From positions 1-20,148 of IMG/VR virus record IMGVR_UViG_3300006847_000108: a stretch of DNA of 20,148 bases, one strand, 5' to 3'. The notes under the pieces are model-generated. The model was not told the DNA's origin. It saw only the letters and a list, made by a program, of their open reading frames with translations, and did not search any database. Positions 1-20,030 of the stretch are shown piece by piece; the stretch's first letter is position 1; every line of letters starts with the position of its first letter. This DNA comes from a virus. A program made the position numbers and the translations under genes.

Positions 1-128
1 CGCTCCAGGGCCGCAACTTCATGTACGAGGAAATGGGTAAGTCCGGCGACAACACCAAGGGGATGGTCGTCGGGGAGTACACCGTGGAAGTGCATCACGG
101 GTCGGCGATGGGACGGCTCAGGGTCTAA
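1..128 (+). CDS. Probable major capsid protein, C-terminal fragment
   Basis: The frame starting at base 3 is open from the window edge to a TAA at 126-128 and encodes the last 41 residues of a protein ending GEYTVEVHHGSAMGRLRV. The segment GDNTKGMVVGEYTVEV followed by a short H-G-x-A/M tail resembles, from memory, the C-terminus of SU10-type (DUF5309) major capsid proteins, where a charged turn precedes a final strand. Its place directly upstream of connector and tail genes fits a capsid gene. A strong terminator lies 176 bases downstream, as expected for a highly expressed capsid transcript. The family call is inference from a short fragment; the rest of the gene lies outside the window. Confidence 0.55.
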   Translation, partial: LQGRNFMYEEMGKSGDNTKGMVVGEYTVEVHHGSAMGRLRV

Positions 129-154: not shown

Positions 155-277
155 ATGTTCAAGGACCACAAGGAACCCGCGCCCAAGCCGGAGCCCAAGT
201 CCGAACCGGAGCCGAAGAAGAAGCCTGAGAAGAAGGAGCCGGATCCGCCACCCCCGCCGAACGCGATGGGGGTGTAG
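155..277 (+). CDS. Small Lys/Pro/Glu-rich hypothetical protein (40 aa)
   Basis: ATG at 155 is preceded by a good ribosome binding site, TGGAGG at 143-148, six bases upstream. The 40-residue product consists almost wholly of K, P and E in PEPK-type repeats, then a run of five prolines and a short NAMGV tail. It must be disordered and highly charged. It sits between the capsid gene and the terminator at 304-350, so it is probably co-transcribed with the capsid. Similar tiny charged proteins are common next to phage capsid genes, but no function is assigned. The clear ribosome binding site is the main argument that it is real. Confidence 0.6.
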   Translation: MFKDHKEPAPKPEPKSEPEPKKKPEKKEPDPPPPPNAMGV

Positions 278-364: not shown

Positions 365-580
365 GTGCATCCAGTGTTTGAGGAGTTCTGTCGCGCCCGA
401 GACTTGCGCCCGGAGGTGCTGCACCGGATGCAGCGCGTCGTGCGCACCGAGATTCAGCCGCTCCTGGACGAGCGGGAGACGTTGATCGAGGAGAACGCCC
501 GGCTGCGCGAGCGCGTCGCGGCGCTTGAAGCCGAGCCCAAGCAGCGAGTCGCCAAGAAGCCCGAGGCGGTGCCGGCGTGA
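365..580 (+). CDS. Small coiled-coil hypothetical protein (71 aa)
   Basis: GTG start at 365 follows a G-rich ribosome binding site (AGGGGG at 355-360). The 71-residue product is helical. From about residue 30 the sequence LLDERETLIEENARLRERVAALEAE has heptad spacing of leucine and valine typical of a dimeric coiled coil, followed by a basic Lys/Ala/Pro tail. Its stop codon overlaps the start of the large glycosyltransferase gene by four bases (GTGA), so the two are translationally coupled and expressed in fixed ratio. It could be a partner or recruiting subunit of that enzyme, or a minor structural protein. The family was not recognised. Confidence 0.7.
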   Translation: MHPVFEEFCRARDLRPEVLHRMQRVVRTEIQPLLDERETLIEENARLRERVAALEAEPKQRVAKKPEAVPA

Positions 581-3500
581 AGTTCTCCTGGTGTTTCGTG
601 ATCGACAGCGTGCCGTTCTCGAAAGCCACCCGCGACGGCGAGACGTCGCTGGGAGGGTCGGAGTCGGCGTGTATCGGCCTCGCGCGTGCCCTGGCCGTCA
701 AGGGACATCACGTCTTCATCTGCGCCACCAAGCTGGCCGAGGACGCGCAGGGCGCTGATGCGGCTGGGGTGACGTGGATCCCCTACGACCAGCTCGACCT
801 GACGAACATGTTCTTCGAGTGGGACGTGTTCTGTGTCCTCCGCCACCCGGCGATCTTCCAGACGCCTCGACGGGCCAGGCTGCGGGTGCTGTGGAATCAG
901 GATCTGCTGAACCACGACGGGTTCAAGGCGATCGTGATGGCGGTCGCGTGGGCCTACGACAAGGTCGTGTACGTCTCCGAGTTCCATCGGGCGCAGTGGG
1001 AAGACTGGCTGCCGGAACTCAAGCCGCTGGGGCACGTCACCAAGAACGGGTACGACCCGGCGAACGTGCCGGATCCAGCGGCCATCGTCAAGGATCCGAA
1101 CCGCATCATTCACATCAGCCGCCCGGAGCGAGGGCTTGCGCCGCTGCTCGAGATGTGGCCCGCCATCCGGCAGGCGCACCCGCTGGCCGAGCTGCACCTG
1201 TGCCGGTATTCCTCAATGTACGACACCGAGGGCTGGGGGCAGGTGTGCCAGGACTTCGATGCCCAGGCCGCCGATCTGAACGCGCGTGTCGGGGGCATCA
1301 CGTTTCTCGGGGAGCTGAACAAGGTCCAACTACACCAGGCGATCGCGGAGTCCGCGGTGATGGCGTATCCGGGGGTGCATACCTTCGCGGAGACGTCGTG
1401 CATCGCGGCCATTGAAGCGCAGGCGAACGGCACGCCGTTTGTCGGCTCGTGGAAAGGCGCGCTGCCGGAAACCGTGCCCGGCGGGATCTTGATTCCCGGG
1501 GGCGCGTTCGAGCCGGACTATCAGCGGGCGTTCGTCGCGGCCGTCGGTCGGATGCTCGACGGCTGCGCGCGGAACACCGTGGAGTACCGCCGGCTCCAGC
1601 ACGACGGCCGCGCACACGTCGAGGCCTACACCTACGCGGTGATCGCGGCCGAGTGGGAAGCCTGGGTGGAGCAGACGTTCCGCCAGCGGTACGACGGCAA
1701 CAAGCGCGGCGTCCTCCGACAGTTGCTGCACTACGACGACCACACCGCCGCGAAGATCGTCGCGCAGGAGATCGTGGACGGGGACGCGCCGTACGTCTTC
1801 GGGTGGGCGCAAGGGCAGTTTACGGAGGACATCCGGCAGGAGGCCGAAGACGCGCTCGTGCTGTGCGACCGCGTCATTCGTGGCGAGGATCAGTCCGCCG
1901 AGGACTACGCCCACCACGCGCTCGATCCGATCACGGAGCTCAACGCCAACTACAACCGCCTCACCGACGTCGTTGCCAAGCTGAAGGACTGCGCGTCCGT
2001 CGTGGACATCGCCTGCGGCTCCGGGGCGTACGCGCTCGGCCTCGCCCGGGCAAACCCGGCGATGCACGTCACGGCGATCGACTACGCGCAGGGCAACATC
2101 GACGCCGGCCGGAAGGCGGCCGAGCAGCTCGGCGTGGCGGATCGCATCACCTGGATCTGCGCGCCCGTCTGGGACTTTGCGACCGGGACGTTCTCTGAGT
2201 GGTGGCAGACCTTCGCGGCTGAGGGACCACGGTTCAATGGGCTCTGGTGCGGGGAGTTCGTCGAGCACGTCAGCGATTGCACGGCGCTCATCGACGGACT
2301 CGAGTCCGTCGTCACGCCCGGGTCACCTGTGGTCTACACCTGCCCCTATGGGCCGCTGGGGGACTTGATCACCCGGCGGCAGACACATCTGCGCGGGCAT
2401 GTTCACCACTTCGGGCAGGCGGATCTGGTGGCGGTGTTCGGGAAGAAGGCCGGGATCGACTTCCAGTTCCTGCCGTGGCTCGGCGTCACGCCACGAGGCT
2501 GGCGCACCGGCAACTGGCTGATCACGTATCGCGCAGGCACCGCTCCGGCGGGTCAGCGGCCGTACGCTCGGCAGATCCTGACGACGCGGCCGAAAGCGCG
2601 GCTGTCCGTCGGCATCCTCGCGCAGAACGCCGAACACGATCTCGCGCGGTGCCTCGATTCGGTCTGGGCCATTGCCGACGAGATTGTCATCGGGGACGCG
2701 GGCAGCACCGACAGTACGCGACAGATTGCCGAGTCGTTTGCGCGCAAGGTGCGTGTCGTGCCGGTGACGCCGGTCTCCCAGCATCCGGACGGGTTCTCCG
2801 GGTCGCGCAACGAAGTGCTTGCGCACTGCACCGGGGACTGGTTCCTCTGGCTCGACACCGACGAAGTGCTCGTGGGCATGGATGCGGTCTGGCAGTACCT
2901 CGAGAGCGGCCCGTTCATCGGCTACTCGATCCACCAGAACCATCTGCAGTTGGATGCCCCGCAGCACTACGACAAGCCGATCCGGCTGTTCCAGACCCGG
3001 CAGCCGATCCAGTTCTACGGCGCGATTCACGAGCAGCCGCAACTGGTGGACTGCAACGGGGACATCGAACCCGCCTTGGAAGTCTTCGACGTCCAGATCG
3101 CGCATACCGGGTATCTCACGGTGAACGTGCGCCGCGACAAGATGCTGAACCGGAACCTGCCGCTGCTTGGACGTGATCAGGATCGGTTCCCGGATCGACG
3201 GCTGGGCAAGGTGCTGGTACTGCGGGACTACGTCAACCTCGCGGACTTGGACTGCGAGCAGCACGGGGATCGGCTGACCGGACGGGCGCGGCAGTTCTAT
3301 CAGGAAGCGATCACACTGTTCACGTCCACATTCAGTGACCCGGCGGACAAGCACCACGAGATTGCGCGGCCGTTCTATGAGCGGGCGCTGCAGGTGCTCA
3401 AGAAGGGCACTGAAGTCGAGTTCTCCTTGGCCGGGAAACGGGGCGGGTTGAACGGGACGCGGGCGAAACCGGCGCGGGCGTGGGTGCAGTCGCCGGAGGA

Positions 3501-3618
3501 AATGCAGATCCTCGTGCGGCATCGGCTGGACAAGGCGGCGGCGGATATGGTGCCGAAGCCAATCCGGCTCGATCCGATTGTGCCGAGGGTGAAGGCACGC
3601 GAGGCGGTGAGCGCGTGA
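577..3618 (+). CDS. GT4 glycosyltransferase - methyltransferase - GT2 glycosyltransferase fusion
   Basis: A 1013-residue, three-domain enzyme. Residues 1 to about 370 form a GT-B fold, GT4-like glycosyltransferase: a Gly-rich GGSE loop at 26-29, HISRPERGL near 179-187, and the E-x7-E signature at Glu272/Glu280 (AETSCIAAIE) that contacts the nucleotide sugar in retaining enzymes. Residues about 440-655 form a class I SAM-dependent methyltransferase with motif I VVDIACGSGAYALGLA at 475-490 and an acidic IDY at 501-503. Residues about 672-850 form a GT-A, GT2-like glycosyltransferase with DAGSTDST at 707-714 and the DxD-type motif LDTDE at 759-763. The last 160 residues are helical and basic. 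It would sequentially add and methylate sugars, on the virion or on a host surface glycan; the acceptor is unknown. Start is GTG 577, coupled to the gene upstream. Such enzymes are usually separate proteins. Confidence 0.88.
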   Translation: MKFSWCFVIDSVPFSKATRDGETSLGGSESACIGLARALAVKGHHVFICATKLAEDAQGADAAGVTWIPYDQLDLTNMFFEWDVFCVLRHPAIFQTPRRARLRVLWNQDLLNHDGFKAIVMAVAWAYDKVVYVSEFHRAQWEDWLPELKPLGHVTKNGYDPANVPDPAAIVKDPNRIIHISRPERGLAPLLEMWPAIRQAHPLAELHLCRYSSMYDTEGWGQVCQDFDAQAADLNARVGGITFLGELNKVQLHQAIAESAVMAYPGVHTFAETSCIAAIEAQANGTPFVGSWKGALPETVPGGILIPGGAFEPDYQRAFVAAVGRMLDGCARNTVEYRRLQHDGRAHVEAYTYAVIAAEWEAWVEQTFRQRYDGNKRGVLRQLLHYDDHTAAKIVAQEIVDGDAPYVFGWAQGQFTEDIRQEAEDALVLCDRVIRGEDQSAEDYAHHALDPITELNANYNRLTDVVAKLKDCASVVDIACGSGAYALGLARANPAMHVTAIDYAQGNIDAGRKAAEQLGVADRITWICAPVWDFATGTFSEWWQTFAAEGPRFNGLWCGEFVEHVSDCTALIDGLESVVTPGSPVVYTCPYGPLGDLITRRQTHLRGHVHHFGQADLVAVFGKKAGIDFQFLPWLGVTPRGWRTGNWLITYRAGTAPAGQRPYARQILTTRPKARLSVGILAQNAEHDLARCLDSVWAIADEIVIGDAGSTDSTRQIAESFARKVRVVPVTPVSQHPDGFSGSRNEVLAHCTGDWFLWLDTDEVLVGMDAVWQYLESGPFIGYSIHQNHLQLDAPQHYDKPIRLFQTRQPIQFYGAIHEQPQLVDCNGDIEPALEVFDVQIAHTGYLTVNVRRDKMLNRNLPLLGRDQDRFPDRRLGKVLVLRDYVNLADLDCEQHGDRLTGRARQFYQEAITLFTSTFSDPADKHHEIARPFYERALQVLKKGTEVEFSLAGKRGGLNGTRAKPARAWVQSPEEMQILVRHRLDKAAADMVPKPIRLDPIVPRVKAREAVSA

Positions 3619-3622
3619 CGCC

Positions 3623-3859
3623 TTACGGAAATCTTTCTTGGGCCGCGAGGTACTCGCGCCAAAGGTCCGCCTCGGCAGATCCGTCCGGTAATTCCAATAC
3701 TTGCCGAACGAGAACCTCTGGCTCGACACCCCCGCGCCGACGCAAGAGCAAGGCGTCTTCGATCCGAACGTGGATTTCGTCGGCCATCTCAGCGACAGGG
3801 ATGCCTCCGACGAACGCGGCCGTGGCAAGTGTGTCAAGTGGCGGATGGTGCTCGCACAT
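3623..3859 (-). CDS. Possible minus-strand hypothetical protein (moron, 78 aa)
   Basis: This 78-residue minus-strand ORF fills the only sizeable gap between plus-strand genes of the left half. Its translation is protein-like: a hydrophobic N-terminal part (ATAAFVGGIPVAEMADEIHVRIEDALLL) and an amphipathic, acidic C-terminus with LWREYL, with balanced use of E, D, V, L and R. The local base composition is less GC-rich than in neighbouring genes, as in a recently acquired moron. Against it: no clear ribosome binding site precedes the ATG at 3859, and I found no convincing promoter or terminator. The plus-strand readings of the same bases are Ser/Arg/Thr-rich and look like shadows. The family was not recognised. 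Confidence 0.45.
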   Translation of the reverse strand: MCEHHPPLDTLATAAFVGGIPVAEMADEIHVRIEDALLLRRRGGVEPEVLVRQVLELPDGSAEADLWREYLAAQERFP

Positions 3860-3876: not shown

Positions 3877-4743
3877 ATGTCGTGGCATCCAAACGACCTC
3901 TTTACCGAGCTCGACCTGCTCGCGTACGAGGGCAGCATCCTGACCAGCTTCCAGAAAGTGGACTGGCAGGAGAAGCGTCGCAAGGCGGTGACGGACTGGC
4001 TGCGGCCCCTGCTGCGCGCCAACGGGTTCGCGGTGGAGCGGTTCCGCACGCGGTTCGAGCCGGACGCTGTGGTCGGATTCACCGGAGCGGCCTACAGCGA
4101 CAAGCGCGGCGCGGCGATCAGCGCGGATGCGGACGATCTCAACCTCGCCACCATCTTCGCCACAGCGGGATCGGATGCGCTCTATGTCGGCTCCGATCAG
4201 CAGTTCCGCGGGATCTCGCTGCGGATGCAGGACAGTGTGACGGCCACGGCGAACGTCCTCAGTGTCGCGTATTGGGCCGATGCCTGGATCGCGCTCGACG
4301 TGGTGGACAAGACGCAGAAGGTGACCGGCAAGTCCTTCAGCGGCGGCGGCTCAGTGACGTGGCGGATGCCGGAGGATTGGGCGCTGCGGTCGATCAGCAC
4401 GTTCGGCCGCCGGTACTGGGTGAAGCTGACGGTCTCGGCGACCCCGGCGAGTGCGACGGCGGGACAGTTCGGGGTGATTCGCCATTCGGCCCTCGCGCCA
4501 GCGGTGACGTTCTGGACGCTCGCGCTGATCATGCGCGAAGCCCCGGCGAGTGCCTCGGGGCCGTGGCTCGAGAAAGCCGTCTGGTACGAAGCCCAAGCGG
4601 AGGCGGCGTGGCAGCGTGCGCTCTCTGTGCTGGGCGGGGAGTTCGAGACCGACGATCCGCTCACCGATCAGATCAGCGAGACGGAGTCGGAGCAGACGAC
4701 GTCGGAGGCGACTGGCGGGCCGTGGCGGATGGAGCGCGCGTAA
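3877..4743 (+). CDS. Putative head-tail adaptor with inserted beta domain (288 aa)
   Basis: ATG 3877 follows GGAAG at 3866-3870 with six-base spacing. The ends of the protein are helical: residues 1-55 (TELDLLAYEGSILTSFQK, then KAVTDWLRPLLRANGF) and about 215-265 (WTLALIMREA, then YEAQAEAAWQRAL). Together they resemble the helical bundle of gp6/HK97-type head-tail connector proteins. Between them, about residues 80-210 are rich in S, T, V, G and W and look like an inserted beta-sandwich. The C-terminus is acidic and Ser/Thr/Glu-rich. Position after the head genes and before the tail terminator supports an adaptor role. The assignment is by fold pattern and context, not by a recognised signature. 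Confidence 0.55.
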   Translation: MSWHPNDLFTELDLLAYEGSILTSFQKVDWQEKRRKAVTDWLRPLLRANGFAVERFRTRFEPDAVVGFTGAAYSDKRGAAISADADDLNLATIFATAGSDALYVGSDQQFRGISLRMQDSVTATANVLSVAYWADAWIALDVVDKTQKVTGKSFSGGGSVTWRMPEDWALRSISTFGRRYWVKLTVSATPASATAGQFGVIRHSALAPAVTFWTLALIMREAPASASGPWLEKAVWYEAQAEAAWQRALSVLGGEFETDDPLTDQISETESEQTTSEATGGPWRMERA

Positions 4744-4968: not shown

Positions 4969-5403
4969 ATGGCCGCGACGACGGCTGACGTGATCGTGGA
5001 TCGCGTCCGCTCGATTCTCGCCAGTCCAGTGTTCGGGTTTACCGAGGCGGTGACGTGGAGTTCGTTCGATCAGCAGCCGGACACCAACATCGACCGCGTG
5101 TATCGGATTCCACCCCCAAGCTCCCAGCGGAGCGCGGGGGGGTTCGGGTTTACCGAGGATCGCACCGACGTGCTGCAGATTTGGGTGGCGCGAAAGCATC
5201 ACCAGGACATGCACGTCACCCGCTCCCTGCTCTTGCGGGACGTGCATAGCCTGACGACGGCGATCCTGCGTGACGCGCACGAGGCGAGCGGGGACTACGG
5301 GATCCCGGATGAAGGGCGCGGCCATGCGATCGCGGATGTGCCCCGCGCGGCGTACGTGACGCTCCGGCTCACGCTGCCGGTGAACTACGACTGTCAATTT
5401 TGA
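4969..5403 (+). CDS. Putative tail terminator / tail completion protein (144 aa)
   Basis: The ATG directly follows the upstream TAG. The 144-residue protein has an N-terminal helix (ADVIVDRVRSILA), a central strand-turn region (DVLQIWVARKH), a second helix (LLLRDVHSLTTAILR) and a C-terminal strand pair (AYVTLRLTLPVNYD). This alpha-beta pattern and size match lambda gpU / gp17-like tail terminators, which form a ring between connector and tail tube. Its place directly before the tail tube gene is the standard position. Recognition is structural and contextual, so the exact family is uncertain. Confidence 0.6.
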   Translation: MAATTADVIVDRVRSILASPVFGFTEAVTWSSFDQQPDTNIDRVYRIPPPSSQRSAGGFGFTEDRTDVLQIWVARKHHQDMHVTRSLLLRDVHSLTTAILRDAHEASGDYGIPDEGRGHAIADVPRAAYVTLRLTLPVNYDCQF

Positions 5404-5417
5404 GGTAGGAGACGCCC

Positions 5418-6485
5418 ATGCCCGGAACCACTGGCCGCGAAATGAAAGGCTTCGCGTTTGCGAAGTTTGCCACCAATTCCTGGGGCGTGGCCGCAGCGGT
5501 CACGAAAGGCACACGGTTCCTCTCGGACGGCGGCCTCAAGTATCTGCCGTCGTTCATTGAGGATCGCTCGTTCGGGGAAACCTTCCTCGGCGCGTCCTCG
5601 CAGGGCGACGTGGCCCCACCCGATCTGACGCTCGCCGGGCAGGCGCGCTACGAGGATCACCACTACGTGCTGGAAGCCTTGGCGATGGGCTCGCCCGCCA
5701 CCGTGGCGATCTCAACCTCGGCGGTCGGGCAGGTGACGTCGTGGTCGCATGTGCTTGATCTCGCCCCGTCGATCGACGGCCTCGGGGCAACGTTCGCGCT
5801 GGACCGCAAGCTCTACGTCGAAGAACTGACGTCCGCGAAGATCTTCGGGTTCGGCGACACCATCGGCGACGGCGGGATCGTCGTGCAGGCGTTCCGGGTG
5901 TTGGGTTCCAAGGCGACCAACATCTCGAGCGTCAACATCAATTCCACCGTCTACGGCGCGAGCTACCCGGCGCTCGGCGGGAAAATCTTCCGCAATCAGG
6001 GCGTCTTCCGGTTGAACGCCCAAGCCGGGGGCGCGCTGGCGGCGTCGGATGCGATCACGATCGAAGCCTGCGAGTTTGGGTTCGAGCGTCCGCAGGATCG
6101 CTCGTTCGTCTACGGGCAGGACTTCATCGCGGAACCGGCCGACAACGAGTTCCCCGAACCGATGGTCCGCGTGGCCTATCCCCGCATGAACACCGTCTCG
6201 GCCAACTCGCTCTATGGGGCGATGCGCGCGTTCTCCGCCTATAAGGGGGATCTGACCTACCTCGGAGCGTTCATCAACTCCACCGATCGCTACACGAAGC
6301 TCTACCAGTTCCCGTACATGGAGCTGCAGGACTTCGAGACGCCCACAGCAGGGGCGGCGCAGGTCAAGCCGGTGGCGATGTTCCGCTTGAAGCAAGCCTC
6401 CGCGGCACCGACAGGGATGACGGGGGTGACGAAGCCGTTCCGCATCACGCGGATCATGGTCAATTCGGTTCACGCATTCGCGTAA
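5418..6485 (+). CDS. Major tail tube protein (355 aa)
   Basis: ATG 5418 has a strong ribosome binding site, AGGAG at 5407-5411 with six-base spacing, as expected for an abundant structural protein. The 355-residue product is beta-rich and Gly/Ala/Ser-rich, with few charged clusters. It lacks a signal peptide. It would polymerise as rings around the tape measure to form the non-contractile tail tube. It is longer than the minimal 150-250 residue tube proteins, so it may carry an extra surface domain. Order tail terminator, this gene, chaperone pair, tape measure is the canonical siphovirus order and is the main support. Confidence 0.75.
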   Translation: MPGTTGREMKGFAFAKFATNSWGVAAAVTKGTRFLSDGGLKYLPSFIEDRSFGETFLGASSQGDVAPPDLTLAGQARYEDHHYVLEALAMGSPATVAISTSAVGQVTSWSHVLDLAPSIDGLGATFALDRKLYVEELTSAKIFGFGDTIGDGGIVVQAFRVLGSKATNISSVNINSTVYGASYPALGGKIFRNQGVFRLNAQAGGALAASDAITIEACEFGFERPQDRSFVYGQDFIAEPADNEFPEPMVRVAYPRMNTVSANSLYGAMRAFSAYKGDLTYLGAFINSTDRYTKLYQFPYMELQDFETPTAGAAQVKPVAMFRLKQASAAPTGMTGVTKPFRITRIMVNSVHAFA

Positions 6486-14335: not shown

Positions 14336-14526
14336 CCGGCTATCTCCATCGCGTCGATCGGTTTCATCGAGACATGCCGCATCCGCCGCCGCCACTTCCG
14401 CGCGATGCGTGGCACGGCCGCGAGTTCGTGGAAGCGGATGGCACACGCGATGAAGTGGTCTGGGATGGCACGTCGCCGTACCAGCCGAGCGAATGCGGGC
14501 GGGCGCTCGTGGTTCCGAAACCATGA
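14332..14526 (+). CDS. Small His/Pro-rich hypothetical protein (64 aa)
   Basis: GTG 14332 overlaps the endolysin stop (GTGA) and has an excellent ribosome binding site, AAGGAGG at 14318-14324, seven bases upstream; this start is preferred to an upstream ATG in the same frame. The 64-residue product is polar, with several histidines and a run of prolines near residues 17-22, then acidic and Trp-containing regions (REFVEADGTRDEVVWDG). No family recognised. Its stop overlaps the start of the secreted protein gene by four bases. Confidence 0.6.
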   Translation: MTGYLHRVDRFHRDMPHPPPPLPRDAWHGREFVEADGTRDEVVWDGTSPYQPSECGRALVVPKP

Positions 14527-15878
14527 ACGCCGCATCTGCCGTCGCCCTCCTGCTCCTGCTCGCGTCTCCCGCGCACGCGCTGACGCGCACGGTCGTACCG
14601 GGTGGAGTCTACGGCGAACGCTGCACGACGGGCGAAACGGCCGTCCTGATCTGGGGCTCGCACGTCCAGACGCATCTCGGCAACGTGGCGCTGCCGCCGG
14701 ATGAACTGCGCGCCGGCGGGAAAGGGCCGCTCTACACCCGTATTCGGTGCGCACCGTTCGCATTTGCCGGCCAGAGCCATGCGGGGTTGGGTACTTGGCA
14801 GTGGCGCGTCGGGATCGGGTGGACGCTTCATCCACCAGCCTGCGGCGTGTCCCCGGTCATCTACACCGCGGCTGGCGATCTCCTGATCTCGGATTGCTCC
14901 GTGGGCTCGCAAGGCTTCCGGTATATCGATCGTCACGGGCGTCCCATCTCCGGCGATATGACGTACGCGGACATCCCCAACCGGATCTGGGAGTGGACGG
15001 AGTACGACGGCGTACGAGTCGGACAAGGGAACGACGGCTGCATCAGCATCCGCGGGATCGATCGCCGGATGCTCGAACGGGGGGATTGCCGGTTCGTGCG
15101 GTTCCACCTGGTTGGGCAACGCTTCTCGATGGTGATGTCCAAGTTCGAGGAAGGCGTGGTGGTCCTGCTCGACGGCATCCTGTCGGACCTCTCGACGTTC
15201 CCGCAGGAGGCGATTGACGTCCCGCCTCCGCCGCCTCCCCCGCCACCGCCGCCACAGGTGCCGCCATTTCCGGAGGACATCTTCGCGGCGTTGCAGGCGA
15301 CACGGGCTCGGTACCCCACGCCATTCAAGGGATTCGGCTCTGTCCTGATCAACGAAATCGCGCACCAGTTCCGCGCACGGCGGGCGGGGCTTGAGTCCAA
15401 GGTTACGGGCAACACCTGTCGGCAACCAAAGACGGACGCCAGCGTGTCCTGTGACATTTTCCGCATCGGCGATTTCGGCTACGACGTGATCCGGGCAGAG
15501 GAGAGCGACGGCCAAATCGTGCGGCCTGAGGGTGGAGCGGCGGATCCCGCGAGGTTCGTGGCTCCCGTCGATCCGGACGACGGGCCGCCGCCTCCACCGC
15601 CTCCCCCTGACGGGCTGGAGGCTCGGGTGCGGCTGCTCGAATCCGAAGTGCTCGCCCTGACGACGCGGGTCGTCGCCCTGCGGGATGCGCTCACCGCGCA
15701 GGCGCAGCGGATTGCCGCATTAGAGCAACAGCAGCCGTCGCAGGGCGTAGACGAGGCCGCGGTCAAGGCGCTGATTGACGCGGAGCTCAAGGCGCTGCGG
15801 TTCAAGGTGTTGATCGGCGAGTCGCTGTCGAGGCCGTTCAGGCATACGCACAGCGGGACCGTGGAGATGATCCGATGA
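14523..15878 (+). CDS. Secreted protein with two polyproline linkers and coiled coil (451 aa)
   Basis: The chosen start is ATG 14523 (ATGA overlap with the gene upstream), because it yields a clean Sec signal peptide: hydrophobic ALLLLLAS, then a PAHA-LT cleavage site near residue 19. Residues 20-225 form a compact Cys- and Trp-containing domain. A polyproline run near 233-246 leads to a second domain, about 250-345, with ALQATRARYPTPF, LINEIAHQFRARRAGL and NTCRQPKT...VSCDIF, a pattern I recall from phage proteins near lysis genes. A second polyproline run near 354-362 leads to a coiled coil (about 363-405), and the end has HTHSGT. It would be exported and multimeric. Spike, envelope-binding protein or secreted effector are all possible. 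Confidence 0.72.
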   Translation: MNAASAVALLLLLASPAHALTRTVVPGGVYGERCTTGETAVLIWGSHVQTHLGNVALPPDELRAGGKGPLYTRIRCAPFAFAGQSHAGLGTWQWRVGIGWTLHPPACGVSPVIYTAAGDLLISDCSVGSQGFRYIDRHGRPISGDMTYADIPNRIWEWTEYDGVRVGQGNDGCISIRGIDRRMLERGDCRFVRFHLVGQRFSMVMSKFEEGVVVLLDGILSDLSTFPQEAIDVPPPPPPPPPPPQVPPFPEDIFAALQATRARYPTPFKGFGSVLINEIAHQFRARRAGLESKVTGNTCRQPKTDASVSCDIFRIGDFGYDVIRAEESDGQIVRPEGGAADPARFVAPVDPDDGPPPPPPPPDGLEARVRLLESEVLALTTRVVALRDALTAQAQRIAALEQQQPSQGVDEAAVKALIDAELKALRFKVLIGESLSRPFRHTHSGTVEMIR

Positions 15879-16844: not shown

Positions 16845-16970
16845 TCAGTCCGGTTTTTCAGGACGTGTCACGGTCACCGTAATCGTCAAGCCGCCGGCGG
16901 GCTTTACGGGCTGGGCCGGGGCCGCGGGTGGGTCTTTCTTCGGCTCGAAGGGCAGCACCTTCGGGCTCAC
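16845..16970 (-). CDS. 41-aa Pro/Lys-rich protein coupled to the lipoprotein
   Basis: Read on the minus strand, GTG at 16970 overlaps the TGA of the lipoprotein gene by four bases (GTGA). The product is MSPKVLPFEPKKDPPAAPAQ followed by a short Pro-rich stretch and a Thr/Val strand (LTITVTVT), ending RPEKPD at TGA 16847-16845. Tight coupling, and a beta strand in an otherwise disordered peptide, suggest it may be real and may bind the lipoprotein. The evidence is only the overlap and position. Confidence 0.45.
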   Translation of the reverse strand: MSPKVLPFEPKKDPPAAPAQPVKPAGGLTITVTVTRPEKPD

Positions 16971-17626
16971 CGCACTTCCTCGAAGCTCCACTGCACCCCG
17001 CTCGAACTGACGATCTCCACCACACCCCCGGACGTCAGGTAAATGCCCTCGTGGCGGGTAGACGGCCAGCGTGTGCCGATGATCTCGTTCACGATCAACC
17101 GCCCCGCGATTCGGACGATGAAGTTCGAGCCGCTCCCGGTGAACACACCGATGATGCGGACGCGCTGGACGTCTGTTGGCATGTCGAAGACGGTATCGCC
17201 CACCCCAGAGCGACGGAACGGATCCCGCACCCCTCGACCGCTGATCGGCGTCGTGTTCGTCCCGCTGGTGTGGTTCGCCTGGACGGTGATCGTCCCGTTG
17301 TACGCCCGGTTCTCCGTGGGCTGGAAGATGATCGTAGACGCCTGCGAGGTGCCCGCCGCGATCGTGCCGTCCGTCCAGCTCGCCGTGTAGCCGCTCGGTC
17401 CTGTCAATCCGGTGACGGTCATCAGGGAGTTGCCTTCGTTGTAGATCCGCAGGATGCGCTCAGAACGACTCCCGACAGGCATCTCGCCAAAGTCTAAGAC
17501 GGCCTCGAGCCGGATGACGCGCGTTTGGGTGGAAGGAGTGGGACCGCTGGGCGTGCCCCCCTTGCTACCGCCACAGGCGGTTACTAGGAGCAGGAGCAGG
17601 CACACCCACGCGCGCATCAGCACCAT
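16967..17626 (-). CDS. Lipoprotein with ASH-like domain and C-terminal beta domain (219 aa)
   Basis: The chosen start is ATG 17626: AAGGGAGG (17633-17640 on the opposite strand) lies six bases upstream, whereas an upstream TTG would place that site inside the gene. The hydrophobic stretch CLLLLLVTAC gives a lipobox VTAC with Cys18, so it would be a membrane-anchored lipoprotein. Residues about 35-125 have the ASH/choice-of-anchor-D pattern: DFGEMPVGSRSERILRIYNE, IAAGTSQASTIIFQP and a final ISGRG. Residues about 135-219 form a beta domain with MPTDVQRVRIIGVF, FIVRIAGRLIVNE and VEIVSSSGVQWSF, which I recall in other bacterial and phage lipoproteins. Opposite orientation to the late genes and its own ribosome site suggest separate expression, perhaps in the lysogen. 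Confidence 0.78.
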   Translation of the reverse strand: MVLMRAWVCLLLLLVTACGGSKGGTPSGPTPSTQTRVIRLEAVLDFGEMPVGSRSERILRIYNEGNSLMTVTGLTGPSGYTASWTDGTIAAGTSQASTIIFQPTENRAYNGTITVQANHTSGTNTTPISGRGVRDPFRRSGVGDTVFDMPTDVQRVRIIGVFTGSGSNFIVRIAGRLIVNEIIGTRWPSTRHEGIYLTSGGVVEIVSSSGVQWSFEEVR

Positions 17627-17809
17627 CCTACGCCTCCCTTCCAACCGCGTGAGCCTGACGTGAGTAACAACACTCTACTTCCGCCGATTTCCGTGGAGAT
17701 GACTCCCGAATACGTCTATGCCCACAGAGCGAAACCGAGGCCGGAATTACGGCCCTGAGAGGGGTGCTACGCATGAATGCGTGTGGCATCGACCCCGCCA
17801 ACTCCATCG
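17627..17809. other. Intergenic region, candidate attP location
   Basis: These 183 bases separate the integrase 3' end from the lipoprotein start, the usual place of the phage attachment site in phages where int is adjacent to attP. A six-base inverted repeat ACGCAT-GA-ATGCGT lies at 17769-17782. No tRNA fragment, strong promoter or terminator was recognised. The attP core cannot be located without a bacterial attB sequence. Confidence 0.35.
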
Positions 17810-18898
17810 TCAGGATGCGCGCTTTTTGGGCGCATTTTTGGGCCTCCGCGATCGCGCGTGTGTGTCACGTGAGCCGATCGCTTCCACAGCTCGCACGAGC
17901 TCTGGATCGTCGGGATGATCGTACCGGGCGAGCTGCTTCAGGCTTTTCCACCCGCCGAGCCGCTGCACCACGGTCAGCTTGACCCCGCTTGAGGCGGCGC
18001 GCGTAGCGCCCGTATGCCTCAAACTGTGAAAAGTCACGCCACCATTGGCCCGGCCAAGTGGTACCCCCGCCCGCCGGCACAAATCCCCAAAGAGGCCCTG
18101 AATGGTGACGGAGCCCATCGGGTGCCAGTCGCCTCCGTACTTGCGCGCGAAGTAATACGGTCCCGTATTTGGGAGCGCATCCAGTGCCTTCCTCAGCCGC
18201 TTCGAGACGGGCACCTGATACGGTTCACCGCCCTTCGGATCAACCACCTCTAGATAGCGCTTGTGATCGTGCCGACGCTCGAGGCGCCGCACATCGCCTT
18301 GGCGCATCAACGTATCCAGCGCCAAGATGATCAATGCACGTTCTTCGGTCGTGGCGTGCGCGAGTAACCGGCGTTCCGCGTCGCGGGTGAGGATTGTGAT
18401 CGGGGTCCGCGATACCCGCAACCGCTTCACGGCATCGGCGGGATTGACGTCGAGGTATTTCGGAATCGCGCTGCGTATAAGCGGCTTGAGGACGTCGAGC
18501 TCGCGGTTGACCGTGGCGGCTTTCTTCGTCTCGGCCTGCGTGGTTTTCCAGCCTTCGATCTGTTCCCGATCCAATGATGTGAGCTTCGTGTCTCCAAAGT
18601 ATCGGATGAAGCTCTGGATCATCGACCGTTCACGCCGGCCGCCGCGGTGATGCGCGGCGATGTGCGCCAAGTACCACATGGCGTGCTCGCGGAACGTCCG
18701 GATCGGTTTGTCGATCGGGAGATGAAAGCGGCCACGGGCGCGATCCCCCATGACCGCCGCGTACACCTCGTGGGCCTGGGCTTTGGAATCGCGTTGCTGC
18801 GCGCCGGGGCCGATCGGGATGCCGGTGCTAACCCGTCTGCTCGTCCCCTCGATCCACATCCACCAGAAGGGACTGTCCTTTCGTCGGTACACCCCCAT
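17810..18898 (-). CDS. int: Tyrosine recombinase / phage integrase (362 aa)
   Basis: A 362-residue integrase. Residues about 60-160 form the SAM-like core-binding domain. The catalytic domain shows the conserved residues: first Arg in LDTLMRQGDVRRL, Lys in VDPKGGEPYQVP, His-x-x-Arg in FHSLRHTGATRA, Trp in RLGGWKS and the nucleophilic Tyr in LARYDHPD. The N-terminus (YRRKDSPFWWMWIEG) resembles an arm-binding strand domain, and the C-terminus is a basic RRPKNAPKKR tail. It joins attP and attB by strand exchange through a 3' phosphotyrosine bond. Its ATG overlaps the repressor stop by one base, so it is co-transcribed with the repressor, as int and C are in phage P2. Confidence 0.92.
   Translation of the reverse strand: MGVYRRKDSPFWWMWIEGTSRRVSTGIPIGPGAQQRDSKAQAHEVYAAVMGDRARGRFHLPIDKPIRTFREHAMWYLAHIAAHHRGGRRERSMIQSFIRYFGDTKLTSLDREQIEGWKTTQAETKKAATVNRELDVLKPLIRSAIPKYLDVNPADAVKRLRVSRTPITILTRDAERRLLAHATTEERALIILALDTLMRQGDVRRLERRHDHKRYLEVVDPKGGEPYQVPVSKRLRKALDALPNTGPYYFARKYGGDWHPMGSVTIQGLFGDLCRRAGVPLGRANGGVTFHSLRHTGATRAASSGVKLTVVQRLGGWKSLKQLARYDHPDDPELVRAVEAIGSRDTHARSRRPKNAPKKRAS
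17815..17839 (+). terminator. Weak terminator-like hairpin inside the integrase 3' end
   Basis: ATGCGC at 17815-17820 pairs with GCGCAT at 17830-17835, followed by a run of five T (17835-17839) on the plus strand. It would stop rightward transcripts before they enter int antisense. The stem is only six pairs and the bases are also int coding sequence, so it may be chance. Confidence 0.25.
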
Positions 18899-19419
18899 CA
18901 GGCAGGTCGCTTGCGGCGGCGTTGGCGAGCAACTGATCGACGATTTGATCGATGTACTGCACGAACGCGGGCCGTGTCAGGGCTAGTAGTTGGAGTTTGT
19001 CGCCCAAGGATCGCAACGGCGATTTCTTGGACTTGGTGTCCGAGCTCGAGGAGTCGGGCAGCTCCATTGACAACATCCGTGAGTGGGACGGACGGGGCGA
19101 CGAGCGCGACGGACCCAGGTTCTCGCCGAACCGCAGCAGAGTCATCGACACCTCCGAACTGAGATAAGGACGGGTGTATCTCGGAGGGGTGACGGATTAG
19201 GTCATAGTCCGCATCGTACCCTGCCAGCAGGTCATCGATCGAACATTGCAAAGCCTTCGCCAGCTTCAAGAGCGTCTTGGTATTGGGTAGTCGATACCGC
19301 CCGCGCTCCCACGCGTTCACTGTGGTGGCCGGAATGTTCAATCTGCGTGCGAGGTCGCTCTGCGAGAGCGGCGGTGTCGCCTGTTCGCGCAAGCGCGCAA
19401 TGTTCCGCCCGATGCTCAC
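18898..19419 (-). CDS. XRE-family prophage repressor, no S24 peptidase domain (173 aa)
   Basis: The N-terminal domain, residues about 4-66 (SIGRNIARLREQ, LSQSDLARRLNIPATTVNAWERG, LLKLAKALQCSIDDLLAG), is a classical Xre/cI-type helix-turn-helix. The remainder lacks the Ser-Lys S24/LexA peptidase domain. It has a hydrophobic helix (LTDVVNGAARLLELGHQVQEIA) possibly used for dimerisation and a strongly basic tail. Without a self-cleavage domain, RecA-triggered cleavage is unlikely. The start is taken as GTG 19419, which lies seven bases after a predicted -10, so the mRNA may be leaderless, as in lambda cI. Starts further upstream at 19494 (GTG) and 19482 (ATG) would need another promoter. Its stop overlaps the int start. 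Confidence 0.82.
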   Translation of the reverse strand: MSIGRNIARLREQATPPLSQSDLARRLNIPATTVNAWERGRYRLPNTKTLLKLAKALQCSIDDLLAGYDADYDLIRHPSEIHPSLSQFGGVDDSAAVRREPGSVALVAPSVPLTDVVNGAARLLELGHQVQEIAVAILGRQTPTTSPDTARVRAVHRSNRRSVARQRRRKRPA

Positions 19420-19425
19420 CGGCCC

Positions 19426-19454
19426 AGCGTAAGCGCATTCGCTATAGGCGGCAA
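19426..19454 (-). promoter_or_regulatory. Predicted promoter of the repressor-integrase operon
   Basis: On the minus strand, TTGCCG (19454-19449) and TACGCT (19431-19426) are separated by 17 bases. Matches to consensus are 4/6 and 3/6, with the key T, A and T of the -10 present. The predicted transcript start lies at or next to GTG 19419. The operator at 19430-19445 sits in the spacer and covers the first two bases of the -10, exactly as in the rightward promoter. Confidence 0.55.
19430..19445. promoter_or_regulatory. Repressor operator, left copy
   Basis: TAAGCG-CATT-CGCTAT is an imperfect palindrome matching the right operator (TAAGCG-ATAA-CGCTTA) in the core AGCG-N4-CGCT. It overlaps the -10 side of the leftward promoter, so binding would autorepress the repressor and integrase. 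Confidence 0.6.
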
Positions 19455-19482
19455 GCCCGTAAGTGTCTGATGGTAGGGGCAT

Positions 19483-19496
19483 TAGTGATGTCACTA
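19483..19496. promoter_or_regulatory. Second type of palindrome between the divergent promoters
   Basis: TAGTGA-TG-TCACTA is a perfect six-base inverted repeat with a two-base spacer. It differs from the AGCG/CGCT operators, so it may bind another protein such as the Cro-like or excisionase-like product. A further TCACT half-site follows at 19550-19554, just upstream of the Cro-like gene. Confidence 0.35.
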
Positions 19497-19516
19497 CAAT
19501 TTTCGGCGATGGGGTG

Positions 19517-19545
19517 TTGACACGTTAAGCGATAACGCTTATAGT
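19517..19545 (+). promoter_or_regulatory. Strong sigma70-type promoter of the early rightward operon
   Basis: TTGACA (19517-19522), a 17-base spacer and TATAGT (19540-19545) match the sigma70 consensus at 6/6 and 5/6. The predicted start near 19552 leaves a leader of only about nine bases before ATG 19561, without a Shine-Dalgarno sequence. The spacer contains the right operator, so the repressor would shut this promoter in the lysogen. Confidence 0.85.
19526..19541. promoter_or_regulatory. Repressor operator, right copy
   Basis: TAAGCG-ATAA-CGCTTA is a perfect palindrome of six-base arms around four bases, placed between the -35 and -10 and covering the first two bases of the -10 of the early promoter. 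Repressor bound there would block RNA polymerase. Confidence 0.7.
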
Positions 19546-19560
19546 TTGGTCACTTTACTT

Positions 19561-19830
19561 ATGGCAGCGCCTCTTACCGCTCGGCAAGTTCGGGAACTCC
19601 GACAGACGCCGCCGCCGCCGAACGGCAATCGTGTCGCTCTGGCGATCGAGATGACCGGCGTCACTCAACAGCAGATTGCGGATGCGACGGGCCTGGTTCA
19701 GCCCTACATCAGCAATGTCGCCCGCAACTGCTATCCCACGATCACCGTCGAGAACGCGCGCAAGTTCGCGGACTACTTCGGGTGTTCGATCGAAGACCTC
19801 TGGCCCGCCCGTGAGGCGGTGGCGTCGTGA
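19561..19830 (+). CDS. Cro-like XRE-family regulator (89 aa)
   Basis: First gene of the rightward operon, started at ATG 19561 because the promoter lies immediately upstream; an in-frame TTG at 19546 would fall at or before the transcript start. Residues about 23-84 hold a helix-turn-helix (MTGVTQQQIADATGLVQPYISNVARN) followed by ITVENARKFADYFGCSIEDLWP, typical of short Xre/Cro-type regulators. The N-terminus has an unusual run of four prolines. As the divergent partner of the repressor it is likely to favour lytic growth, perhaps by competing for the same operators; this is inferred from position. Confidence 0.78.
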   Translation: MAAPLTARQVRELRQTPPPPNGNRVALAIEMTGVTQQQIADATGLVQPYISNVARNCYPTITVENARKFADYFGCSIEDLWPAREAVAS

Positions 19831-20030
19831 CGGACTCGCCGTACCTGACGGCACCAGAAGCGGCGGCGTACCTGCGCTACGCCTCGGTGCGTGCGCTCTA
19901 CAAAGCTGTCGCCGAACTCCACATCCCCTGTCGCCGGCGCGGCGGCAAGACGTTCCTGTTTCGGAAAGACGAACTTGATCGTTGGCTGGCTGGCGAGTCG
20001 GCCCTGCGGATTCAGCGGAGGGTGTCATGA
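19827..20030 (+). CDS. Excisionase-type MerR-like helix-turn-helix protein (67 aa)
   Basis: GTG 19827 overlaps the Cro-like gene stop (GTGA). Residues 5-55 form a winged helix of the HTH_17/excisionase family: YLTAPEAAAYLRYASVRALY, a wing with RRGGKTFLF, then RKDELDRWLAGE. Such proteins bend DNA at attachment sites (Xis) or act as regulators. Co-transcription with the Cro-like gene from the lytic promoter, opposite to int, fits a directionality factor, like Cox in P2. Confidence 0.75.
   Translation: MTDSPYLTAPEAAAYLRYASVRALYKAVAELHIPCRRRGGKTFLFRKDELDRWLAGESALRIQRRVS

Follow-up and report, generated by a model that had tools for sequence, protein, structure and literature searches.

Enzymes in which two glycosyltransferase (GT) domains and one methyltransferase (MT) domain are joined in a single polypeptide have been described both in a eukaryotic virus and in a bacterium. 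The A064R protein of chlorovirus PBCV-1 is built in this way and makes a methylated part of the capsid glycan, with a separate methyltransferase, A061L, acting after it (PMC9614988). The soluble, trifunctional WsaE of Geobacillus stearothermophilus, which also has one MT and two GT domains, caps a glycan with methyl groups (PMC2943079). These two enzymes show that one polypeptide can carry two glycosyltransferases together with a glycan-capping methyltransferase. Among phages, Corndogvirus (cluster O) has O-methyltransferase and glycosyltransferase genes located between the portal and capsid genes, and such genes of cluster O mycobacteriophages are reported to modify the capsid and the tail tube (PMC11600133, PMC12363180). 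Direct glycosylation of proteins is also known from GmaR, the Listeria flagellin GlcNAc transferase, and from the glycocin S-glycosyltransferases SunS and ThuS, which act on flagellin or peptides directly and share a GT2 fold, an HE motif and a following helical or TPR-like region. The TPR domain of GmaR has been proposed to hold the protein substrate (PMC9638930).

The window analysed here is a complete IMG/VR virus record of 20,148 bases, which is overlapped by a longer contig of 43.8 kb (L002) encoding an identical fusion protein. It contains an open reading frame of 1013 codons, with a GTG start codon and no internal stop, whose product carries all three domains (Table 1). A sequence-only reading of this DNA had proposed three enzymes in the order GT4-methyltransferase-GT2 and had recommended separate domain searches, a structure prediction and a survey of other phage genomes. 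The order was confirmed by Pfam, which recovered Glyco_trans_1_4 (PF13692; aa 177-328, E 8e-9), Methyltransf_25 (aa 475-535, E 3e-8) and Glycos_transf_2 (aa 677-764, E 1e-16), all above their gathering thresholds, and NCBIfam and PHROGs agreed. The GT4 domain holds the E-x7-E motif (E272-x7-E280, nt 1390-1416), the MT domain holds SAM loop motif I (D477-x-A-C-G-x-G), D502 and GEFxEH, and the GT2 domain holds the DxD motif (D760-x-D762) and HEQPQ at 818-822. The survey yielded 30 distinct complete versions of the fusion, and the E-x7-E, SAM-binding, GE-x-x-EH, DxD and HEQP residues are invariant in all of them; the key motifs are intact, as had been claimed. Invariant E272 and E280 together with PF13692 place the first domain in GT-B/GT4, and invariant D477, GxG and D502 together with the Pfam match place the second among class-I methyltransferases. 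The AlphaFold2 model of the full-length protein has three folded domains (pLDDT 79.9, pTM 0.75), and that of the GT2 domain with the helical tail reaches pLDDT 91.5 and pTM 0.85. No clear transmembrane-like segment was found in the fusion protein.

Table 1. Features of the fusion locus in the window, with the basis of each assignment.
Feature	Position	Strand	Basis
Major capsid protein, C-terminal end	1..128	+	Frame shared with the L002 major capsid protein; PHROG 1328, E 3e-29
Small 71-aa protein with conserved N-terminal motif	365..580	+	ORF list; homologues in most clade contigs
GT4-MT-GT2 trifunctional fusion protein, 1013 aa	577..3618	+	ORF list, Pfam, homologues, AlphaFold2
GT4-type (GT-B) glycosyltransferase domain, aa 1-370	577..1686	+	Pfam; nearest solved structures GlgM, PimA, MshA
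Class-I SAM methyltransferase domain, aa 441-655	1897..2541	+	Pfam; nearest solved structures 6uv6, 3bus
GT2 (GT-A) glycosyltransferase domain, aa 673-870	2593..3186	+	Pfam; nearest solved structures GmaR, SunS, ThuS
C-terminal helical region, aa 871-1013	3187..3615	+	AlphaFold2 model, Foldseek
Connector-position protein, immediate downstream neighbour	3877..4743	+	Conserved gene order
Tail-completion/terminator-position protein	4969..5403	+	Conserved gene order
Putative major tail tube protein, possible acceptor	5418..6485	+	Precedes tail assembly chaperone and tape measure; clade-conserved

The fusion gene is embedded in virion genes. The capsid gene that runs into the window is complete in L002 (8407-9552) and belongs to PHROG 1328, major head protein, while the putative tail tube gene is followed 3' by genes for a chaperone, a tape measure and a baseplate hub protein; the connector-position protein is named by its position because it has no Pfam or PHROG match. 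This gene order bears out the proposed site between capsid and connector genes in a virion operon, and the presence of glycosyltransferase and O-methyltransferase genes inside such an operon is the arrangement of Corndog/Che8-kind virion glycosylation. Like the fusion, the Corndogvirus genes lie among head genes; unlike it, they are separate, and their methyltransferase is TylF-like. When the domain HMMs of the fusion were compared with cluster-O genes 33-36, none scored above chance, and the two solutions therefore look independent.

Several other genes of the region were observed. The gap between the fusion and the connector-position gene holds an antisense 78-aa ORF (3623-3859, minus strand) with no Pfam match, which is absent from the other loci inspected. 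Short proline-rich ORFs ending in PNAMG lie in the gap between capsid and fusion in the window (155-277), in L041 (5604-5783) and in L050 (8039-8230), and small HTH-domain-like proteins, odd in a structural operon, are encoded in the same gap in L069 (7460-7990), L108 (3223-3753) and L075 (7197-7436). A protein of 461 aa that contains two polyproline runs and has no match in Pfam is encoded in the late region of the window (14493-15878). A tyrosine-type integrase gene on the minus strand, with HTH-like and excisionase-like ORFs nearby (17810-20030), suggests that the phage is probably temperate, and the adjoining gene for a predicted lipoprotein with an ASH/HYDIN Ig-like domain (16967-17644, minus strand) may be a lysogenic-conversion gene.

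The fusion proved to be a fixed feature of a phage clade. Scans with the single protein found only an identical contig and one relative of 47-50% identity, and alignment-based scans were therefore needed; scanning with a two-sequence alignment, the window protein plus a homologue of 49% identity, retrieved 23 loci. Among the 30 distinct complete fusions, 25 are below 90% identity, down to 41%, and the mean pairwise identity ranges from 39 to 57% by domain. All three domains lie in one ORF, in the same order, in every complete case, and the gene sits between capsid and connector in all clade contigs with enough neighbouring DNA. Scans with the capsid gave 62 loci (40 with all three domains, 22 cut by the end of the contig or of the stored stretch) and scans with the tail tube gave 46 (36 and 10, respectively), so that no capsid or tube locus with enough DNA lacked the fusion, 40/40 via the capsid and 36/36 via the tube; these are counts of loci and not of independent lineages, because many are near-identical or shared between scans. 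One candidate counterexample, a tube locus without the fusion (G008, reached via L127), was rejected, as it gave neither a capsid nor a connector match and has its tube gene at a contig end, and it reads as an assembly gap. In pairwise comparisons, identity in the fusion is correlated with identity in the capsid (r 0.82) and in the tube (r 0.80), and the fusion behaves as a co-inherited core gene. A scan of bacterial and archaeal genomes found no cellular homologue of the fusion, with one GT2-only match in an Omnitrophica MAG, and a scan of a phage genome collection gave single-domain matches only, none covering more than 80% of the query.

Beyond the clade, full-length fusions with 26-39% identity were recovered in a final scan. 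In L170 the gene order is unchanged and the capsid is 35% identical, and the fusions at 26-32% identity are neighbours of head, neck or tail genes in phages that have a capsid of another family. The fusion lies directly 5' of a Phage_tube_2 tail tube gene in L176, which has a Phage_cap_E capsid, directly after the gene for a different major head protein (PHROG 1005), itself preceded by a head maturation protease gene, in L177, and directly 5' of Gp36-like and neck genes in L181. These contexts indicate that several distinct phages have the fusion as a cassette within their virion module, and they provide the strongest circumstantial evidence for a predicted virion target. L184 and L185 were rejected as further relatives, since they match the GT4 domain only; they encode a different GT4-GT2 fusion of about 930 aa (L184, 4545-7337; L185, 4913-7708), in which no MT domain was found and which is flanked by tail-fibre-like genes on the opposite strand.

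The sequence-only reading had regarded the fused, ordered trio as unusual. This view needs correcting: the fusion is a strictly conserved hallmark of its clade that is also found in other head modules, and a GT-GT-MT enzyme glycosylating a viral capsid was already known from the chloroviruses. In BFVD, uncultured phages are represented by other multi-domain proteins of the glycosyltransferase/methyltransferase kind, and fused enzymes as such are therefore not unheard of. A064R resembles the fusion in its domain composition, but belongs to a eukaryotic virus, has the order GT-GT-MT and other GT families, and acts on the N-glycan of an unrelated capsid protein; its domain order and homologous domains were not found in the fusion, and no A064R structure appeared among the PDB matches of the profiles. 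WsaE is likewise soluble and trifunctional, but its MT domain is N-terminal, and it works on a lipid-linked S-layer glycan and is encoded in a bacterial polysaccharide cluster.

The nearest solved relatives of the individual domains allow us to gain some insight into the likely substrates. A GT2 profile built from 21 clade members matched GmaR (2.7e-30), SunS (2.6e-20) and ThuS (1.3e-17) best in the PDB, with polysaccharide synthases (chondroitin synthase, 4e-12) far behind. Foldseek with the GT2 and tail model also placed ThuS and SunS at the top over about 280 columns, reaching into the helical tail, which aligns in part with the region following the GT domain of SunS and ThuS. The domain carries DxD and HE motifs, is succeeded by a helical region and is nearer to the GmaR/SunS group than to other GT2 enzymes; that group differs from the fusion in having no fused GT4 or MT domains and in using other acceptors. 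By analogy with the substrate-holding role proposed for the GmaR TPR domain, the helical tail may act in a similar way. The best PDB matches of the MT profile were 6uv6, a D-glucose O-methyltransferase, and 3bus, the sugar O-methyltransferase RebM, and these matches suggest that the MT domain is sugar O-methyltransferase-like. For the GT4 domain, GlgM, PimA and MshA are nearest, with MshA and PimA given by Foldseek. This resemblance leaves the acceptor unfixed, as does the superfamily similarity of the GT2 and MT domains.

The small gene upstream of the fusion had been described as a dedicated, translationally coupled coiled-coil partner. Its stop and the GTG start of the fusion share 4 bases (GTGA), and in most relatives the two genes likewise overlap or nearly abut. 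The small protein is conserved and apparently coupled; its assignment as a coiled coil is weak (YabA, E 0.002), and nothing supports the word dedicated. In L050 (7428-8042) and L078 (1098-1700) a Methyltransf_24 gene sits between the small gene and the fusion, and in L059 (7442-8041) it follows the small gene before the contig ends. These genes overlap their neighbours and suggest a variable extra methylation; the separate methyltransferase gene that some relatives have next to the fusion can be likened to A061L of PBCV-1.

Taken together, the results confirm the sequence-only observation and largely support its interpretation: the fusion is most likely a soluble enzyme for the glycosylation and methylation of a virion protein. 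The earlier reading had left a choice between a methylated oligosaccharide on the capsid or tail and altered host glycans, and the comparative evidence favours the former over the latter. Phage glycosyltransferases that alter the host surface glycan during infection or lysogeny, as in serotype conversion or superinfection exclusion, are known, and the integrase gene would fit a temperate phage. However, genes for conversion are as a rule optional and located at the edges of the genome, whereas the fusion is never missing where enough DNA is present and, in several unrelated phages, is placed within the head-tail module; it also has no clear membrane segment, and its GT2 domain is nearest to protein glycosyltransferases. 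We therefore regard a role on the host surface as unlikely. The same proximity to SunS and ThuS, and the small conserved protein encoded just 5' of the fusion, could point to glycosylation of a product outside the virion, such as a small secreted peptide in the manner of glycocins, but this is quite improbable, as the small protein is charged and helical-looking, without a leader-peptide or Cys-rich look, and the gene order follows capsid and tail genes and not a peptide cluster with a transporter.

Two further readings appear more remote. Conservation as strict as that of the capsid genes would also be expected of a mainly structural or assembly factor with vestigial transferase domains; the active-site residues, however, are among the most conserved positions and invariant over 30 proteins, which is not expected of vestigial domains, and we hold this reading to be very improbable. 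Modification of the phage DNA by glycosylated, methylated base hypermodification seems the least probable of all. Glycosyltransferases do act on DNA in phages, and some weak viral Foldseek matches are annotated as DNA glucosyltransferases, but no base-hypermodification genes were recognised in the sparsely annotated 43.8-kb contig, the MT domain is not of the DNA-methyltransferase type, and the fusion is located in the late structural module.

For virion glycosylation, we propose that the fusion protein would be made together with the late structural genes. The GT2 domain would transfer the first sugar from a host nucleotide-sugar to a Ser, Thr or Cys residue in a virion protein, most likely the capsid or the tail tube, and the helical tail would help to keep the acceptor in place. 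The GT4 domain would then attach one or more further sugars, and the MT domain would O-methylate the glycan, probably as a cap, with the coupled small protein as an accessory. We infer the acceptor, the identities of the sugars, the order of the steps and the accessory role. No nucleotide-sugar genes were recognised in the sparsely annotated 43.8-kb contig, and the donors would therefore come from the host. A search of the capsid and tube for an obvious glycosylation tract gave nothing decisive, and conserved Ser/Thr residues in the capsid weakly suggest sites. Counting against this mechanism, the first GT2 aspartate (D707, nucleotide-binding) varies in 8 of the 30 fusions.

With somewhat less assurance, we favour the broader view that the gene for a single GT4-MT-GT2 enzyme making a methylated virion O-glycan belongs to the obligatory core genes of a large clade of uncultured siphophages, and that this enzyme is shared with phages of other capsid types and represents an independent prokaryotic-virus counterpart of chlorovirus A064R. 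If this is true, virion glycosylation would be a fixed part of virion building in widespread environmental phages, and not merely an optional extra of a few mycobacteriophages, and it would be carried by one compact, transferable enzyme. The fusion would then offer a single-gene, testable system for the glycosylation of phage particles and, possibly, an enzyme that glycosylates proteins directly and supplies the methyl cap itself, and its gene could serve as a marker for glycosylated phages in metagenomes.
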